From contig JAJUFH010000005.1 of assembly GCA_029266035.1 (NCBI GenBank), positions 62,001 to 126,000 of the forward strand: a stretch of DNA of 64,000 nucleotides, written 5' to 3'. The notes beneath the pieces were generated by a model that saw only the letters and a program-made list of their open reading frames with translations, searched no databases and had not been told where the DNA came from. This document shows positions 4,860 to 64,000 of the stretch, piece after piece (position 1 is the stretch's first letter; every line of letters begins with the position of its first letter). Source of the DNA: Sinomicrobium sp. (GTDB taxonomy: Bacteria; Bacteroidota; Bacteroidia; Flavobacteriales; Flavobacteriaceae). Position numbers and translations under genes: made by a program.

Positions 4860-5516
4860 TTAGGCTTCTTGATAGTATCTCTTCAAGACGTAATCTATAC
4901 TGCGAATTGATTTTTTTGACCAGTCGATATACTTCTCGGTCTTTTCCTCCTCAGATAAACCCCACTGAATATCGCTGCGTCTCAAACGAGAACTCAAACT
5001 GTGTAGAATAATAGCAGCCGAAACAGAGATATTCAAACTCTCGGTAAATCCCTGCATCGGAATTTTGAGATAGCCATCAGCCTCGCTGAGGATCTCTTGC
5101 GAAAGTCCGTCGCGCTCCGTACCGAAAAACAAGGCCGACTTCCTGCTTACATCAAAATCTTCCACATAACAGTCGTCGTCGTGAGGCGTCGTAGCAATAA
5201 TAGCATAACCTTCTGCCCTCAAGCTATCCATACACTCCCGGGCACTTTGATAAGTGTATACATCCACCCATTTCTGGGCTCCCATAGCAATATTCTTATC
5301 GAGCTTTTTTCTAAAGCGCTTTTCTATGATGTGGATGTCCTGTATCCCGAAAACATCACAACTGCGAATTACCGCACTGGTGTTATGCATCTGGAATATA
5401 TCTTCTACTGCCACGGTAAAATGTCTAGTCCTACGCGACAATATATCTCTGAATTTTGCCTTTCGCTCTTCTGTTAAAAAACCTTCCAAGTATTCCAATA
5501 ACGCTAAATCTGCCAT
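4860..5516 (-). CDS. trmH: TrmH-like tRNA/rRNA 2'-O-methyltransferase (SpoU family)
   Basis: HNTSAVIRSCDVFGIQDIHIIE ... ALFFGTERDGLS...IPMQGFTESLNISVSAAI SPOUT motifs. Confidence 0.88.
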   Translation of the reverse strand: MADLALLEYLEGFLTEERKAKFRDILSRRTRHFTVAVEDIFQMHNTSAVIRSCDVFGIQDIHIIEKRFRKKLDKNIAMGAQKWVDVYTYQSARECMDSLRAEGYAIIATTPHDDDCYVEDFDVSRKSALFFGTERDGLSQEILSEADGYLKIPMQGFTESLNISVSAAIILHSLSSRLRRSDIQWGLSEEEKTEKYIDWSKKSIRSIDYVLKRYYQEA

Positions 5517-5588
5517 TGGTGCTTAATCTATTTCAATCAGTATTAAATCGAGTTCTTTAATTTTGGAAAAATCCTTATTGCGATAAAA

Positions 5589-5756
5589 TCAATCTTCATT
5601 TTCTCTTATGGCAATTTGATATTCCAAACCGTCAATTTTTCTTTTTAACTTTCCGTAATGTTTGGCCAAATTCCCCATTCCCTTCTTCTTTTTAAGCCTA
5701 TCAGCAAGAATCTCATTTACCTTTTCGGAGTTATTTTTAGTGATTACTACCGTCAT
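5589..5756 (-). CDS. Small hypothetical protein
   Basis: MTVVITKNNSEKVNEILADRLKKKKGMGNLAKHYGKLKRKIDGLEYQIAIRENED; plausible internal start of the 70-aa ORF. Confidence 0.5.
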   Translation of the reverse strand: MTVVITKNNSEKVNEILADRLKKKKGMGNLAKHYGKLKRKIDGLEYQIAIRENED

Positions 5757-5998
5757 CTTTACACTGTTTAAAATTGAGAATACAAAAATTAGGTCTACCA
5801 TAACTTCTCCAAAATTCAGTTCATCATAGGGAAGTTCAAAGGTGCATTAAGATATTCATACATCAAATTTACCATTTTTTTTTAAACATCTTCTTATCCG
5901 ACAATACCATAGGTCTATTCAAGGCGAAAATGCAACTATACATACAGTGCTTTTTTATATTTTTATACGGCGAAGTTTATTTTTAATTCACAAAAATA

Positions 5999-54570: not shown

Positions 54571-55535
54571 AATGCTCCATTCGTTTTTTCGTTTGAAAAT
54601 ACCACCCGATGCGGATCCTCCGGAAGGTAAAAAATATCCCTTTCCCCTACTTCCAGTTTTCCGATTTCGATAAGGGAGACTATTTTTTTAATACTTGTTT
54701 GGTGAACTGTACCCCTTTCATCTTTAAATTCCAAATCGAACTTCACCTCGGGCTGTTCGTTGATATAAGTACCCGTCTGCGAAATATCGAAAACCTTGGC
54801 ACGCGCTTTTAGTCCGAGGAAATATAATTTATCCGAAGCCCTTCCATTTCGCCTAAACACAGACGAACTAATGGCTTTAAATATAAAACCAAACAGCAAA
54901 AACATAGCCGCAGAGGTAATCAACGGATGCTCCCAAGATATAAAACGCCATCCGTAACCCGCACTCTCATTGATATAACAGTAATAATACCACCCAATTA
55001 TACCTAAGGCAAACACCCCCCAAACTACAAACAACCCGTAGTTGATCTTAGTCTTTACTCCTTCCAAAACAACATAAGGGTGTTTTGAATACTCCGGATC
55101 GACTCTTAAAAAAATATGATTCCCCGGCACATAGCGATTGAGTCCGGGTCCGCTGTCGTTGAGCTGCATTTTATACTGTATCTCTTCACCTCTGAGGTTT
55201 CTAAATTCGAGAAGTACTTCCCTCTTCACCATCTCTTTTGCTAAAGATTTCAGCTGCTTTGCCTCCAAGACTTTCGCATCGATCCTCACTCCTTTTTGTA
55301 GCAGGTATTCCACATTTTTACGCGCTACAAACGAATTTTTATAAATCTGAAAAAGTGTGACGAGCAATATACCTCCCCACAACAATAAACTCAGTCCCAG
55401 ATACATCAACGCCGTTTTCCCATCCCTCCCTGCCAAATCTACATTTGTATTTACATTGTAGTAAATAATAGCCGGATGCACAAAGACAAAATAGAGCGTA
55501 AAAGGAATCCAGATATACAAAAAAAGCTTTTTCAT
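54567..55535 (-). CDS. Hypothetical membrane protein (DUF3592-like repeat domains)
   Basis: Five TM segments; two DUF3592-like segments (VRIDAKVLEAKQL..., ARAKVFDISQTGTYINEQPEVKFDLEF). Confidence 0.7.
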   Translation of the reverse strand: MKKLFLYIWIPFTLYFVFVHPAIIYYNVNTNVDLAGRDGKTALMYLGLSLLLWGGILLVTLFQIYKNSFVARKNVEYLLQKGVRIDAKVLEAKQLKSLAKEMVKREVLLEFRNLRGEEIQYKMQLNDSGPGLNRYVPGNHIFLRVDPEYSKHPYVVLEGVKTKINYGLFVVWGVFALGIIGWYYYCYINESAGYGWRFISWEHPLITSAAMFLLFGFIFKAISSSVFRRNGRASDKLYFLGLKARAKVFDISQTGTYINEQPEVKFDLEFKDERGTVHQTSIKKIVSLIEIGKLEVGERDIFYLPEDPHRVVFSNEKTNGAL

Positions 55536-55694
55536 AGCATATTTGTTTTAAGTATTCCAAATACAATAAAACTTTATCACCGCTTTCAGGAATACCCTGT
55601 AAATATATATCAAAAGGGAACTACCGGAAATACCGGATTTCAGGGAGTTCAGATATTTTTTGGGGAGACTTAGGGTAGCGAAAGAACTAATCAA

Positions 55695-57473
55695 CTAATC
55701 AACAATCTGCATTTTCTTCAACAGAAAAGAGGCATTCATATTCTGACAGATTCCCTTTTTAAAGCGGTAGTCGAAATGAAGCTCGTCGTTTGTAATCTCT
55801 GCATCGAAGTAGTAGTTACTCACCTGTGGCAATATCTCGGCTACCTCGCAAAGGCTCAAGTCGTGAGTAGCGATAATACCGGTAGCCCCTAGAGCTACGA
55901 GTTTTTCCACAAACTTACGCGACCCTATGGCTTTGTCTGTACTATTGGTTCCTTTTAGTATCTCGTCCAGCACCACAAAATACCGATGGTCTTCACTTTG
56001 TAGTATATCTACAATATACTTCAGGCGACTCAACTCTGCGAAAAAATAGGATGCCTCATCTGAAAGTGAATCGATCGCACGCATACTGGTAATCAGTTTT
56101 ACCGGCGAGTACAAGCAAGTCTCAGCACATACTGGGAGTCCGGCATTACCCATTATAAGTTGTAGGGATACGGTGCGTAAAAAAGTACTTTTCCCCGCCA
56201 TATTGGCACCGGTAATAATAAAGAAATTGTCGCGTTCAATCGTATAATCATTGCGAACAGCTTTATCGGCAGGAATCAACGGATGCACAGCACCTGTAGT
56301 TCGAAGCACCACCTCGCTTTCCGTGATATCTGGAAATACATAATGCGGGTGATTGAACGCAAAATTCCCCAAACTGTTATATGCATCTACAGCATTAACC
56401 GTATCGAACCACCGCCCTACCTGATTGCGATGAGTCAGTATCCATTGTTCTATACGGTAGCACTGCCGCAGGTCCCACAAAAAAAATCCGTTGCCCAACA
56501 ATGCGATAATGAGATTATTCCTCTGGTCGAAGGCATCAATAGCCCTTACCAGTTGCCGCAGCAATGGGGAAGCATTTTCCCCCGGTGTAGCAATAGGTCT
56601 GCACAGGGTGACCAATTCTTCAGATGAAAAAGTCTCCTTTTCCAACATATCTAAAAGTTGCTGATACCTCGAGAAGAAATCCTGTACCCTTGCTGTATGT
56701 TGAGCAAATTGATTGATTTTCTTTAGTCTAAAACCTGTCACAAACAAACCGGTCATATAATACAACAGTATCCAAGTTCCGGATAGTATCCCGGCAAAAA
56801 ACAATATAATCAACACTATCGATACTATCGAAAAAGCAGTGGGTAGCCAGCGCATAGCAGTTGGTATAAAGGCAGTGTAATTGTCTATCCACCTCTTCAC
56901 CTCCTCTGCCGGAGTCTTAACTTTGAGCATACGAGCAGTGGCGGTAAACTCCTGCCTGAAATCTGTTTTTTCGGCCAATTCTCTTACCGCCTCCTGCCTT
57001 TCCGAAATGCGATGTGTATTATTTGCTGTTAACCACGATGCCAACACTAATTTACCCGATGCCAATCCGGTTCGGTTGAGATACTGAAAAAAAGAACGAG
57101 CCCCGAACAGATCTACATCGTTGCTATAAGGATGTAACGGATCTATAAATTCCGCCCCGTTGGGTAAATCCTTAAAATCACCTTGAAGTACGCTTAATTC
57201 GGTGTGATTTAGTTTTATTAATTCCTCCAGCTTATTCTTCTTCTCTTCAAAACGACTGTTTCTCACCACCAAAAACAGAAACAGCACTATCCCCGTCAAA
57301 GCTACGATTGCCATAATAATCACATCGGGCGATAAGATGTAAACCGATGCGGCCGTCAGTGCAAATACCAGCAATCTCAACACACTGAGGAGTCGCAATC
57401 GCTTTCTTGTATCCCCAAGCTCGGCTTCATATCCCAAAATATTATCTCTATACAGCTTTTCCGGTATGCCCAT
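55695..57473 (-). CDS. Membrane-anchored MutS-family ATPase (MutS-related protein)
   Basis: ITGANMAGKSTFLRTVSLQLIMGNAGLPVCAE; FFAELSRLKYIV; VVLDEILKGTNSTD; ATHDLSL; hydrophobic segments near N-terminus and middle. Confidence 0.88.
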   Translation of the reverse strand: MGIPEKLYRDNILGYEAELGDTRKRLRLLSVLRLLVFALTAASVYILSPDVIIMAIVALTGIVLFLFLVVRNSRFEEKKNKLEELIKLNHTELSVLQGDFKDLPNGAEFIDPLHPYSNDVDLFGARSFFQYLNRTGLASGKLVLASWLTANNTHRISERQEAVRELAEKTDFRQEFTATARMLKVKTPAEEVKRWIDNYTAFIPTAMRWLPTAFSIVSIVLIILFFAGILSGTWILLYYMTGLFVTGFRLKKINQFAQHTARVQDFFSRYQQLLDMLEKETFSSEELVTLCRPIATPGENASPLLRQLVRAIDAFDQRNNLIIALLGNGFFLWDLRQCYRIEQWILTHRNQVGRWFDTVNAVDAYNSLGNFAFNHPHYVFPDITESEVVLRTTGAVHPLIPADKAVRNDYTIERDNFFIITGANMAGKSTFLRTVSLQLIMGNAGLPVCAETCLYSPVKLITSMRAIDSLSDEASYFFAELSRLKYIVDILQSEDHRYFVVLDEILKGTNSTDKAIGSRKFVEKLVALGATGIIATHDLSLCEVAEILPQVSNYYFDAEITNDELHFDYRFKKGICQNMNASFLLKKMQIVD

Positions 57474-57544
57474 AACCCCTATTTTTCTTTTGACGGGCTA
57501 AAATAAATAAAAGTTCCTTTTAAAATTTAAAATTTCCACAGGTA

Positions 57545-57567
57545 GGGACGTTGCAGTGCAACGTCCC
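57545..57567. repeat. REP-like palindrome 1
   Basis: GGGACGTTGCA-G-TGCAACGTCCC, perfect 11-bp arms. Confidence 0.9.
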
Positions 57568-58070
57568 CACAATTCCCACAATCCCAAACAACCCCCAACA
57601 ATCCCCAACAATCCCTCGACAATCCCAAACAACCCCAACAATTCCAACAATCCCAAACAATTCCAACAACCCCCACAATCCCAAACAACCCCCAACAATC
57701 CCCAAAAATTTCCAACAACCTCCACAATCCCAACAATCCCAACAATTCCCAACAACCTCCAACAATCCCCAACAATTCCCAAACAACCCCAAACAATCCC
57801 AAACAACCCCCAACAATCCCCAACAATCCCAAACAATTCCAACAACCCCCACAATCCCCAACAATTCCAAACAATCCCAAACAACCCCCAACAATCCCCA
57901 ACAACCCCAACAATTCCAACAATCCCAAACAATTTCCAACAACCCCCAACAACCCCCACAATTCCCGAAATCCTAACAATCCCCAACACCCCCACAATCC
58001 CCAACAACCCCAACAATTCCAACAATCCCAAACAATTCCAACACCCCCCACACCCCCCACAACCCCCACA
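57568..58070. repeat. ~500-bp degenerate tandem repeat (CAACAATCCC)n, ~9-11 bp units
   Basis: ccccaacaatccccaacaatccctcgacaatcccaaacaacccc... read directly; strongly strand-asymmetric (almost no G on +). Confidence 0.95.
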
Positions 58071-58660
58071 ATTTCCACAGGGCAATGCAATGTTCCAACA
58101 GCAGGAATATCATTTGATTTTCTATCGATAATCAAAATACCATGCAGATGATTGGGCATTATCACAAATGCCCCCAATGTCACAAATGGGAAATGATTGG
58201 GAATGTCTTCCCAATATGCCTCAGCCAATTGTCCCAATTGGTTTAATTGCATTTTAGCATTGACAATTTTCCTAAAATAATGAACCCGATGGCGCGTGCA
58301 GATAGTGATAAAATAGGCACCATTTTCCCCATAGTCATATCCCTTAAGTCGGATGGATATACCTTTGTATTTATTTTTAAATTTAGCAGACATACCATTT
58401 ATTAAATCAAAAATGCATTTTATGCCAATTCAGATTTAATTTAAAAATACAAAAAATTCCTATAAAATAAGAAAGGTTTTTATTCAATTATAAGAGAATA
58501 TAATTTACATCTCATTCCATCATACCATATCACCACTGTAGATATCATCACAAGAATACTGTAAACAAAAACATTATAAACAGCTTTGACAATCGGTTTG
58601 TTTTAGGGGGAATTATTGTAGGATGTTGGGGTTAAGGAGAAGGGATCTCAATAAAAAAAT

Positions 58661-58685
58661 GGGGATGTTGCAGTGCAACATCCCC
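58661..58685. repeat. REP-like palindrome 2
   Basis: GGGGATGTTGCA-G-TGCAACATCCCC, perfect 12-bp arms; compensatory change relative to palindrome 1. Confidence 0.9.
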
Positions 58686-58717
58686 ACAGGGATATGATTA
58701 TTCCTAAAGGAATTTAG

Positions 58718-60316
58718 CTATTTTGTTTCCTCTTTAAACCTCAAGGCTTTTCCGGCTAGTTTTCCGGTGTATTTCCCTTGATCTATGCTCAGTGTTCCAT
58801 TGACAAAAACATAGGGAATTCCGGAGGGGTATTGTTCAGCCTTGACATAGTCGGCATTATCTTTAATTTCTTTGGGATCGAAGAGTACCAAATCGGCATA
58901 GTAGCCTTCTTTTACAAAACCTCTGTCTTTAATTTTAAAGGTTTCTGCTGTTTGTCCACTAGAGCGCTGTATGGCTCTCGAAAGGGATATAACCCCTTTT
59001 TTAATAGCGTATTCGCTCAGCAATTTGGCATAGCTACCAAAGGCTCTTGGGTGACCTCCACCTCCATCAGATCCGGTCATCACCCAGGGCTGTTTCATAA
59101 AGCGGTTTACATCTTCGTCAGACATGCTAAAAGAGTGAACCATAGGGCTCTTTTTTTCCAGTATGCGAACCACTGTTTCTTCCGGAGAGAGTTTCCATTC
59201 CTTTGCTATTTCGGCTATGTTTTTACCGTTTAAGAAATCGTCGGAGGGAATAGACAAATACAAGCCATCGGCTTTACCGGTTCTAATCTTTATAGTTTCT
59301 TTTACCTCTTTTACAATTTGGGCACGGGTATCTGGATCTTTAAAACGATTTCGCATGGCGGAACTTCCTCCATCTCTTGCCCAGCTGGGCACCAGGGCAG
59401 CGCTCAAGCTGGTACGCGATGCCAAATAAGGATACTGATTCGCCGTCACTTTAACACCTCTAGACTGTGCAGCTTCAATAACTTCAATAATCTCCTTACT
59501 CATACCCCACAGCTCAGGACCATCTACTTTGATATGAGAAAAGTGAACAGGTATACCTGCTTTTTCTCCTATCTCAATAACCTCTTCTACAGACTTGCGC
59601 ACTCCAATGTTTTGTGCTCCTTCATCTCGTTGGTGTGTATCGTATATCCCTCCGTATTTGGCCGCTACTTTAGCCAATTCGATCACCTCTTCGGTATTTG
59701 CAAAAAAGGCAGGAGTATAAAAAAGTCCGGTAGACAATCCGAATCCCCCTTCCTGCATAGCTAGGTCGACCAGATTTTTCATGCGTTCCAATTGTTCCGG
59801 AGTCGCCAAAACATCATCATAGCCTACTATTTCCCTACGCAGTGTACTGTGCGGAACAAATGAAGCAGCATTTATCCCGATTCCCTGCTCGTCCCATTTG
59901 TCGAACATAGGTCCTAAAGGCAGGGGTCCGCCTCCATCACTACCTACAAAAACGGTGGTAACCCCTTGAGTAAGGCAGCGCAATACCGCTCGGGTTTTCG
60001 CCTTGCTGCTATTCAGTCGGGCAGTGTGATGTGTATGAGGATCTATAAAACCGGGAGATAAGTACAATCCGCTAGCATCAATTTTTCTGTCAACCGCAAA
60101 CTGATTTTTAAAATCGCCTACAAAGACGATGCGTTCACCCCGCACTCCAACATCGAGCTGTAGCGAATCACCTCCACTTCCGTCGAAAACCCAGGCGTTT
60201 TCAATTAAATAATCGAGCGGCTGATTGTCTTGTGCGCAGAGTTTATTAAACAGTGCGCTACCCACCAATAGACCGGAAAATACAACGGTCTTTCCTAATT
60301 TTTCAAATGATATCAT
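58718..60316 (-). CDS. N-acyl-D-amino-acid deacylase family amidohydrolase
   Basis: NAWVFDGSGGDSLQLDVGVRGERIVFVGD...SPGFIDPHTHH; MTGSDGGGGHPRAFGSYAKLL; ADLVLFDP. Confidence 0.92.
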   Translation of the reverse strand: MISFEKLGKTVVFSGLLVGSALFNKLCAQDNQPLDYLIENAWVFDGSGGDSLQLDVGVRGERIVFVGDFKNQFAVDRKIDASGLYLSPGFIDPHTHHTARLNSSKAKTRAVLRCLTQGVTTVFVGSDGGGPLPLGPMFDKWDEQGIGINAASFVPHSTLRREIVGYDDVLATPEQLERMKNLVDLAMQEGGFGLSTGLFYTPAFFANTEEVIELAKVAAKYGGIYDTHQRDEGAQNIGVRKSVEEVIEIGEKAGIPVHFSHIKVDGPELWGMSKEIIEVIEAAQSRGVKVTANQYPYLASRTSLSAALVPSWARDGGSSAMRNRFKDPDTRAQIVKEVKETIKIRTGKADGLYLSIPSDDFLNGKNIAEIAKEWKLSPEETVVRILEKKSPMVHSFSMSDEDVNRFMKQPWVMTGSDGGGGHPRAFGSYAKLLSEYAIKKGVISLSRAIQRSSGQTAETFKIKDRGFVKEGYYADLVLFDPKEIKDNADYVKAEQYPSGIPYVFVNGTLSIDQGKYTGKLAGKALRFKEETK

Positions 60317-60319
60317 AAT

Positions 60320-60922
60320 TTATGACTTATACTTTAATACTAATGTAAGCGTTCCTCGAGTACCCGGATTTTCAATATCGGATATATAGCCAATGGCATA
60401 GCTGTCTCTGGCCTTCGATTTAAACAAGACCACATCCCCTACTTCTAGTTTAGTCAACCGTCCTCCCGGCCCTTGCAGCAAAGGGTCGTGACTGTCGTTG
60501 TACACTGTATTATTACGACTCACATTAAAAAGTTCTTTTAAAGTCTCCAATGAATTTACACCGTCGAATACCGTTTTAGCATCCTTCTGATCCAATTTGA
60601 TAAAAGTTCCGTCATTTCTTTGTTTCCATGCAGACACCTTGGCGAGCAAAGATTTTGAGAATGCTCTCAGTCCGGCATCGTTGGTAGGAACCATCAGGTT
60701 TGCTCCGGTACTCTTGCCGTGCAGATAGATAAAATCGATATCCCAACTATAGTAATAGCCCTCTACACCGGTGTATACCGCTTCTTTGTTTAAAGACACA
60801 TAACCTTCCGGCACGGTGCGCTGTGCACCCAACTGATATTCCTTCTGTTTAAGAGGAGTATCTTGAGCCATTAATACCCCTGAAGAAATTAATAAAAATA
60901 AAAATACAAGCTGTTTCATCAT
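60320..60922 (-). CDS. Secreted hypothetical protein
   Basis: Signal peptide MMKQLVFLFLLISSGVLMAQ; 3 bp from the deacylase start, same strand. Confidence 0.78.
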   Translation of the reverse strand: MMKQLVFLFLLISSGVLMAQDTPLKQKEYQLGAQRTVPEGYVSLNKEAVYTGVEGYYYSWDIDFIYLHGKSTGANLMVPTNDAGLRAFSKSLLAKVSAWKQRNDGTFIKLDQKDAKTVFDGVNSLETLKELFNVSRNNTVYNDSHDPLLQGPGGRLTKLEVGDVVLFKSKARDSYAIGYISDIENPGTRGTLTLVLKYKS

Positions 60923-61185
60923 TTTAAGTCGATTGATTAAAAAGCAGACACCCCCATTCTCAGTAAGAAATATCTACTACTACACAAATATATAAATCTC
61001 AGCCCCACAAACAGGCACTTAAATGTTAGATTTAGTAGAATTCGGAAAGTATATTTCTTAAGAACAAGTTATTAGTTTGTTAAAATTATCAGTTAAAAGG
61101 CCACACAATGCTTACAGCGGCTTTTCTCTAATTTGAAACACTCATTTCATCGATTAAAAATGCTTTTATTTACTACTTTTGCGAG

Positions 61186-61554
61186 GTGATACGAACGCTT
61201 AAAATTACAGGGATTATTTTTCTGTCTGCTATTTGCAGTCTGGCATTAGCCGGTAAGGAGACTATGAGCTCTCAGTTTACAGACCCTGTATATCAGCATG
61301 ACGGGGAGCGCTATTCTGAGGTTAACCTCAGAGATATTCCCTATTGTAATATCAATGCAAAAAATTCAAAATCGGCGCGAAATACTTCTTCTGTCAATTC
61401 AAAATATAAAAATTTTGGCGGACTTTCAGTTATATCTTTTATAGAAGGAAATAGCATTAGAGCTATTTTCAAACAAAGCCGGAATTTATCGATTTGCTTT
61501 ACGTATTTAGATCGAAAATCTGATATTATATTTCCCTTTCACAATTTTTGGTAA
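61186..61554 (+). CDS. Hypothetical secreted protein
   Basis: GTG start, signal-like MIRTLKITGIIFLSAICSLALAG; TACTTTTG -7-like box at 61174-61181. Confidence 0.45.
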   Translation: MIRTLKITGIIFLSAICSLALAGKETMSSQFTDPVYQHDGERYSEVNLRDIPYCNINAKNSKSARNTSSVNSKYKNFGGLSVISFIEGNSIRAIFKQSRNLSICFTYLDRKSDIIFPFHNFW

Positions 61555-61795
61555 CTGTTTAGATCGGCTGTAAATTTAGGCTTATCACTCAAAGAAGAGA
61601 ACAGTGATATCTACATTTTGTATCGATACCATTAGACTTCTTTATTCCTATATCTACGGCGTAATCCACTGTGCTTACCCTTTAGCTTTGTATGGTATTC
61701 AGATCCCATCCATAAGCACACAGCGACTTTTACCACATATAAAAATTTCATTTTACAGGCACAAGGCCTTATTTAACAATTAGGTTGACATCAAT

Positions 61796-62443
61796 ATGGA
61801 ACTACTGGAAATAATCTTGGATTTTATCATACATATCGACAAATATTTAATATGGATTATCGACGAATACGGAATATGGATATATCTCATTCTCTTTCTA
61901 ATTATTTTTGTGGAAACCGGTTTGGTAGTGATGCCTTTTCTGCCGGGCGATTCTCTTTTATTTACCGCCGGAATGCTCTGTGCTACCGGTAGTATGAATG
62001 TGGTATACCTCGCTATTTTACTGTTTGTCGCTGCTGTTTTGGGCGACAACGTGAATTATAGAATAGGACATTATCTCGGACTAAAAGTGTTTAACAAAGA
62101 GTCTAGAATATTTAATGAAAAGCACCTGATAAAAACCAGGGCGTTCTTTGATAAATACGGTGGTAGTACGCTTATCATAGCGCGGTTTGTTCCATTTATA
62201 CGAACCTATGCCCCATTTGTTGCCGGCGCTTCCTCTATGGATAAAAAGCGTTTTATGCTATACAACCTCGCAGGAGGAGCCTTGTGGATAGTATCACTGC
62301 TCTTACTGGGATACTTTTTCGGAAATCTGCCCATCGTACAAGAAAATTACAGTATTGTACTGCTGCTGATTTGTGTGATATCTATGGCTCCTTTATTTAT
62401 TAAATTTATCACCAATCTCTTTAAGAAAAAACAGGAACAATAA
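61796..62443 (+). CDS. DedA-family membrane protein (VTT/SNARE-associated)
   Basis: FVETGLVVMPFLPGDSLLFTAGML; GDNVNYRIGHYLGLKVF; ARFVPFIRTYAPFVAGASSMDKKRF. Confidence 0.94.
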   Translation: MELLEIILDFIIHIDKYLIWIIDEYGIWIYLILFLIIFVETGLVVMPFLPGDSLLFTAGMLCATGSMNVVYLAILLFVAAVLGDNVNYRIGHYLGLKVFNKESRIFNEKHLIKTRAFFDKYGGSTLIIARFVPFIRTYAPFVAGASSMDKKRFMLYNLAGGALWIVSLLLLGYFFGNLPIVQENYSIVLLLICVISMAPLFIKFITNLFKKKQEQ

Positions 62444-62459
62444 ACCCGTAAAATACGCC

Positions 62460-62997
62460 GTATAAGTATTTACGTTTACGCCATAAGTAGTTCCGGTTGT
62501 CGTATAGGTGATTATGTTTGCCGTATAAGTAATTAGGTTTGCCGTATAGGTAATTAGGTTTACCGCATAGGTAATTACGTTTACCGCATAAGTAATAAGG
62601 TTTACCGCATAGGTAATTACGTTTACTGCATAAGTAATAAGGTTTACCGCATAGGTAATTACGTTTACTGCATAAGTAATTACGTTTACCGTATAGGTTA
62701 CTACGTTTGCCGTATACGTATTTATGTTTGTCGTATAGGTTATTACGTTTGCCGTATAGGTTAATACGTTTGTCGTATAAGTAATTAGGTTTGCCGTATA
62801 GGTTATTACGTTTGTCGTATAAGTAATTAGGTTTGCCGTATAGGTTATTACGTTTGTCGTATAGGTAATTACGTTTGCCGTATAGGTTATTACGTTTGTC
62901 GTATAGGCAATTACGTTTACTGCATAAGTAATTAGGTTTACCGTATAGGTAATTATGTTTGCCGTATACGTAAACCGGTTCGGCGTAAACGTAATCA
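62460..62997. repeat. 21-bp tandem repeat array (~25 copies; consensus GTTTRCCGYATARGTAATTAN)
   Basis: gtttgccgtataggttattac / gtttaccgcataagtaataag units read directly; partial 42-bp higher-order period. Confidence 0.95.
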
Positions 62998-63065
62998 CTT
63001 AAATGGTTAAAATCGAGTTTTAAGGCTACTAGCAGCACTTTCCCTTAAAGTTCAAATTGCAATTC

Positions 63066-63994
63066 GTTGTGAATTGCTTTCAGAAATTTGTAGTTTTACA
63101 GGGATTCGTTCCAACAAAATCAGAAGGAATACAACCAAGCGACAGGTTGTGAATTGCTTTCAGAAATTTGTAGTTTTACAGGGATTCGTTCCAACAATGG
63201 CTTGATACTATCCTCGGTTTCCTTAGTTGTGAATTGCTTTCAGAAATTTGTAGTTTTACAGGGATTCGTTCCAACATCCATCTTCCATGTTTCTTTGGGT
63301 GGGTAGTTGTGAATTGCTTTCAGAAATTTGTAGTTTTACAGGGATTCGTTCCAACCGTTAGAATCCTCAGATACCCAGGCTTTAGTTGTGAATTGCTTTC
63401 AAAAATTTGTAGATTTACAGGGATTCGTTCCAACTAACATAATTTCCGTTTGCGTCCTGATACCGTTGTGAATTGCTTTCAAAAATTTGTAGATTTACAG
63501 GGATTCGTTCCAACGGAATAGGGTCAATTACCTTTCAAGCGCTAGTTGTGAATTGCTTTCAAAAATTTGTAGATTTACAGGGATTCGTTCCAACAAAGAC
63601 TGGGTAAATGAAAGTTAACGGAGTGTTGTGAATTGCTTTCAAAAATTTGTAGATTTACAGGGATTCGTTCCAACATTAATAACTGTTCGTCGTTGTACGA
63701 TCCTGTTGTGAATTGCTTTCAAAAATTTGTAGATTTACAGGGATTCGTTCCAACCTTTAATATTTTATAATGCCCATTTGGGTAGTTGTGAATTGCTTTC
63801 AAAAATTTGTAGATTTACAGGGATTCGTTCCAACAGGAGTAGTACAAGCAATGCGCACAATGGCGTTGTGAATTGCTTTCAAAAATTTGTAGATTTACAG
63901 GGATTCGTTCCAACTGGCGGGTTGGCGGGTTGAAATCAGTTTTTGTTGTGAATTGCTTTCAAAAATTTGTAGATTTACAGGGATTCGTTCCAAC
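63066..63994 (+). CRISPR. CRISPR array, 12 repeats visible (50 nt), 11 complete spacers (29-30 nt), continues past the window; probably type II-C
   Basis: GTTGTGAATTGCTTTCAAAAATTTGTAGATTTACAGGGATTCGTTCCAAC at 63066, 63146, 63226, 63306, 63385, 63465, 63545, 63625, 63705, 63785, 63865, 63945; type and strand inferred from repeat form. Confidence 0.97.
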
Positions 63995-64000
63995 TTTTAA

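Follow-up and report, generated by a model that had tools for sequence, protein, structure and literature searches.

The 64,000 nt stretch of DNA analysed here (the window, bases 62001-126000 of contig C6) contains part of a CRISPR array, and the initial annotation had proposed that each of its repeats contains a promoter. This raises the question whether every guide RNA of such an array can be transcribed from a start site of its own, and whether an arrangement of this kind is shared by related arrays.

The array occupies 63066 to 63994 on the plus strand, with 12 repeats of 50 nt (GTTGTGAATTGCTTTCAAAAATTTGTAGATTTACAGGGATTCGTTCCAAC) and spacers of 29-30 nt, giving a period of 79-80. It extends to the end of contig C6, which holds 37 repeats, and contig C37 starts with 48 further copies of the same repeat; from this identity we infer that the two contigs are joined inside one array. 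On C37 the repeats are followed by a terminator-like hairpin, cas2, cas1, a REP-type transposase gene and cas9 (1421 aa), with the cas genes on the strand opposite to the array and pointing at it. The proteins match Cas9 (TIGR01865), type II Cas1 (TIGR03639) and Cas2 (TIGR01573), and an anti-repeat upstream of cas9 pairs with repeat positions 2-27. With a tracrRNA, with cas9, cas1 and cas2 only, and with neither csn2 nor cas4, the locus is of type II-C. A gene for a REP-associated tyrosine transposase was seen at 5198-5821 of locus L004, one such gene lying between cas9 and cas1, and the window ORF at 57498-58393 starts, judged by eye, like such a transposase and then turns into a low-complexity tandem repeat. 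Rfam returned no match in 55000-64000. Since the array runs towards its newest end at cas2, from which it is separated by the terminator-like hairpin, the window holds the oldest spacers. The upstream flank considered by the initial annotation (63001-63065) therefore belongs to the old end and not to a leader.

The motif was described as TTG (repeat positions 2-4) followed after 21 nt by TAGATTTA (positions 26-33), which differs from TTG-N17-23-TAnnTTTG in the last base only, and this description holds. TTG-N21-TAnnTTTA is present in all 12 window repeats, and TAnnTTTA is kept in 84 of 85 repeat copies across the assembly; the final base is A where the consensus has G, and all other box bases match. 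Window repeats 1-4 carry the substitutions A18G and A29T, the latter hitting a free n of the box, which then reads TAGTTTTA. The TTG of repeat 1, proposed as the -33 element, lies at 63067-63069 (plus strand) and has its equivalent in every repeat. The putative -7 box follows on the same strand as TAGTTTTA at 63091-63098 in repeat 1 and at 63171-63178, 63251-63258 and 63331-63338 in repeats 2-4, and as TAGATTTA at 63410-63417 in repeat 5 and in the 8 nt from 63490, 63570, 63650, 63730, 63810, 63890 and 63970 in repeats 6-12. Since such boxes are placed at -12 to -5 (PMC9723704), the start is predicted at repeat position 38, which is 63103 (plus strand) in repeat 1; this would leave 13 nt of repeat in a transcript. 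The chance of finding the motif in this repeat is 6.9% when positions 17-50 are shuffled and 10.7% when the whole repeat is shuffled, and a TTG and box pair occurs anywhere in the shuffled repeat with a chance of 5.0%. Thus, with 5-11% of shuffles matching equally well, the motif in this single repeat alone is not significant.

Related repeats were collected by a Cas9 search in 400 genomes of the family of the window and 395 genomes of its phylum. For 120 loci the arrays were taken and the repeats oriented, 20 loci of the phylum lying outside this sample, and TAnnTTTG was scored with up to one mismatch at 17-23 nt from TTG. The box was found in 46 of 51 distinct long repeats (44-50 nt), about 8-fold above shuffled controls (mean 5.5, maximum 13, with positions 17 onward shuffled), so that the promoter element is conserved in the repeats of relatives; dinucleotide shuffles gave an expectation of 7.2. 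The initial annotation had named a lack of enrichment in related repeats as grounds for giving up its proposal, and the proposal withstood this check. When repeats were counted by clusters of 80% identity, 17.5 of 22 contained the box compared to 2.25 after shuffling. A count that did not presuppose the consensus gave the same word: TANNTTT was the commonest of the 1,024 words of the form xxNNxxx in that stretch (38 of 51 long repeats), followed by GTNNTTT (23 of 51). The two bases denoted nn are highly varied among long repeats. In a plain alignment of all long repeats the box does not appear as conserved columns, because its spacing from TTG varies. Only six mutations in the box were seen among 1,243 inner repeat copies, four of them at the two free positions, and these are too few events to decide.

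The suggestion that this arrangement may be general holds for the repeats of 44-50 nt; in 36-nt Bacteroidota repeats the box was not clearly enriched (6 of 25 distinct repeats, shuffled 2.3, shuffle maximum 8). The 36-nt repeats of loci L095-L173 (for example GTTGTGGTTTGATTAAAGATTAGAAAACACGATATT) have no internal box. Several 36-nt repeats end in TAnnTT (TACATT, TAGATT), about 19 nt past a second TTG at 9-11, and such ends could be part of a promoter that extends into the spacer.

For comparison with other phyla, GTDB genomes were scanned with an alignment headed by a Cas9 segment of the Geobacillus type, which yielded 80 loci, nearly all of them non-Bacteroidota. Loci of Balneolaceae and Ignavibacteria were excluded from this set, since they recur in the phylum sample. 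Repeats were oriented by their start, with the exception of four GTCATA repeats, which were recognized by TATGAC at the opposite end. TAnnTTTG was not enriched in the non-Bacteroidota II-C repeats (2 of 36 orientable repeats, shuffled 4.1), whereas 21 of these 36 end in TATAAT with up to one mismatch (shuffled 2.1), an end that was found in none of the 51 long Bacteroidota repeats.

No spacer precedes the first repeat of a II-C array, and no crRNA contains the 3' half of this repeat. In 30 of 42 complete long-repeat arrays its 5' end has decayed. The lost stretch measures 1-19 nt in 29 of these 30 repeats and 27 nt in one, while the box begins at 22-26; in 29 of the 30 arrays decay thus ends before it reaches the box (p = 1.5e-6, assuming endpoints uniform over 1-33, the range that detection should cover). 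Among the 27 decayed repeats whose consensus has the box, the T, A, T, T, T and the last base are intact in all but one, and two other decayed first repeats are changed at a free box position only. The -33 TTG behaves differently: it is missing at 17-23 nt ahead of the box from most of these decayed, box-retaining repeats and thus seems dispensable, which fits the observation that F. johnsoniae shows no motif at -33 (PMC7366714). Since II-C repeats of other phyla also begin with GTTG, the TTG is uninformative as a promoter element. Feussner et al. 2025 reported that mutations of the II-C extra repeat are concentrated within its first 15 nt and reasoned that the promoter needs to be kept (PMC12080349); their view predicts that decay stops before the box, as seen here.

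Pairing with the tracrRNA was considered as a cause of box conservation and ruled out: the anti-repeat pairs with repeat positions 2-27 only, so the duplex cannot account for conservation of the remaining box. Of 83 tracrRNAs from these loci, 60 have a box no more than 28 nt ahead of the anti-repeat. Its last base is G in 38 and A in 17 of the 60 (shuffled 2.8 and 10.0), and thus A may be used while G is preferred. In many tracrRNA loci (for example L004 10240-10281) a promoter-like box was observed from a few to about 20 nt ahead of the anti-repeat. The tracrRNA start may in this way limit the repeat duplex to a point just short of the repeat's own box. Upstream of genes, TTG with TAnnTTTG occurred 12 times in sense and three times in antisense orientation, the excess expected of a promoter; tracrRNA regions opposite cas9 were left out of this count, and an earlier count that included them was probably distorted. 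The form with final A was hardly enriched there (seven sense, three antisense, 5.0 shuffled), which counts against the promoter reading, as does the systematic use of a final A instead of the consensus G in most long Flavobacteriaceae repeats.

The final A would be accounted for if the conserved middle were a palindrome or hairpin (TA-n4-TA and flanks) with a role in RNA folding or in integration by Cas1-Cas2, and resembled a -7 box only by coincidence. TAnnTTTA is indeed a small palindrome, 20 of 46 repeats have a complementary first flanking pair (11.1 expected), and forms with TAnnTTAG retain a shifted palindrome; the palindrome is perhaps the reason for the final A, which the promoter consensus does not explain. 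However, complementarity of the pairs further out is not clearly above expectation, and RNAalifold on 30 repeats gave only a weak terminal palindrome and no helix at the box. A palindrome also does not explain why the TT of the presumed loop is fixed or why there are TTTG forms that are not palindromic (L198, L199, L208, L210), and the box is kept in the oldest repeat, distant from the integration end. We therefore regard the palindrome as an improbable sole cause, although both constraints may act together.

The upstream flank supplies the material for another explanation, in which a promoter outside the array drives transcription and the RNA matures with tracrRNA and RNase III, as it does in type II-A. 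The initial annotation had stated that 63001-63065 is free of TAnnTTTG, which is correct for these 65 bases. Directly before them, a 21-nt tandem repeat of about 500 nt (62501-62998, plus strand, open in more than one frame) contains 13 perfect TAnnTTTG boxes on the strand of the array at 62513-62961, 105-553 nt upstream of it. These boxes count against transcription from the repeats only, and they could provide such an outside promoter; yet they are copies of one chance event, and an outside promoter explains neither the enrichment of the box in unrelated loci nor the retained 3' half of decayed first repeats, so that we consider this source of transcription very unlikely. A chance match in an A+T-rich repeat, conceivable for this repeat alone at 5-11%, is even harder to believe given 46 of 51 related repeats against 5.5 expected and other phyla at or below expectation.

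The flank may also pair with the first repeat. In the window, a candidate hairpin spans 63041-63104 (plus strand) with arms in 63041-63065 (GCAATTC) and 63071-63104 (GAATTGC) and the loop GTTGT; it is weak (-17.8 kcal/mol, z -1.98, 5 of 200 shuffles equally good, longest exact match p 0.11). In other arrays with an intact first repeat the flank can bear an inverted copy of the 5' end of the repeat (CAAACCACAAC). Inverted matches with p < 0.01 were found in 9 of 33 arrays with intact and in none of 39 with decayed first repeat (Fisher 4.5e-4), one of the nine, L194, having another repeat type. Within 36-nt arrays of the Flavobacteriaceae type the ratio is 9 of 10 to 0 of 7 (Fisher 4.1e-4), with a match of only 7 nt in one of the nine (L157). 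Some of the hairpin flanks are similar to each other, and the cases in both comparisons are thus not all independent. Hairpins were seen in L191, L100, L149, L146, L168, L173, L095 and L158; the folding energies go down to -43 kcal/mol (z -8.9), and the stems of L191 and L100 run past the repeat through unrelated but matching sequences. In other CRISPR types, leader-repeat hairpins block extraneous crRNA, and by analogy the hairpin of flank and first repeat may do the same. In earlier II-C work, the extra repeat was not reported to form a hairpin with its flank (PMC12080349).

Taken together, the enrichment in long repeats, the contrast with other phyla and the retention of the box in decayed first repeats make a promoter embedded in the repeat very likely; each repeat would be recognized by the primary sigma factor of the host, with TAnnTTTA at positions 26-33 as the -7 box. 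RNA polymerase would then start near position 38 of each repeat and proceed from the old end (window 63066) towards the new end. The primary transcript would consist of about 13 nt of repeat, a 30-nt spacer and the next repeat, the 5' part of which would pair with the tracrRNA before trimming. We favour, with less confidence, the view that the promoters of II-C repeats have been rebuilt for the host's primary sigma factor, as a TATAAT-like 3' end in 36-nt repeats of other phyla and as an internal TAnnTTT(A/G) in the 44-50 nt repeats of Bacteroidota, where the extra length would place the start inside the repeat instead of the spacer.

If this is true, a single CRISPR repeat acts as promoter, integration site and guide-RNA handle together, and the promoter portion of the repeat changes with the host sigma factor once a system becomes established in a new phylum. 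This would suggest why II-C arrays of Bacteroidota have long repeats, and such arrays would be predicted to be weakly expressed in sigma-70 hosts if no other promoter is added. For users of Bacteroidota Cas9 systems it would show where crRNAs should begin. The conservation observed suggests that every guide RNA has a small promoter of its own.

The idea itself is not new: repeat promoters in II-C systems and a TTG-based proposal for Flavobacterium are already known. One promoter per repeat was established in C. jejuni (Dugar 2013, PMC3656092) and is given as the rule for II-C (PMC12080349; PMC13187072). Hoikkala et al. 2021 proposed a Flavobacterium repeat promoter on the basis of a TTG that precedes each spacer by 33 bp, with eight F. 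columnare reads (PMC8092290), and a paper on F. psychrophilum followed this proposal (PMC10309648). The authors of a Riemerella study, using a general predictor, found no promoter in the repeats (PMC5006608); the published P. intermedia repeat, when reversed, contains TTG-N19-TATCTTTG (PMC5608340). A literature search covering few subscription papers returned no report of a -7 box in these repeats or of the contrast between phyla, and no mapped start site for a long-repeat array was found in the accessible literature.

The window repeats resemble the promoters of the Bacteroidota primary sigma factor (TAnnTTTG; PMC9723704, PMC7366714) in TAnnTTT and in a plausibly spaced TTG, but have A instead of G as last base, and their start is a predicted one. 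As in Feussner 2025 (PMC12080349), the first 15 nt or so of the oldest repeat decay; here, the decay boundary was compared with the box in long repeats, and a flank hairpin was found in related 36-nt arrays. The II-C arrays of F. columnare and F. psychrophilum come from the same bacterial family, run towards the variable end and have a proposed repeat-encoded promoter, for which the accessible parts of those reports name TTG alone and describe no -7 box in the repeat. With the II-C systems of Campylobacter jejuni (PMC3656092) and Neisseria, the window array would share a promoter in each repeat, a crRNA made of spacer and next repeat, and transcription towards the newest end. In these two systems, the -10 box lies in the 3' part of 36-nt repeats and transcripts start in the spacer, whereas the window array has a box of the Bacteroidota -7 type within a 50-nt repeat and a start predicted inside the repeat.
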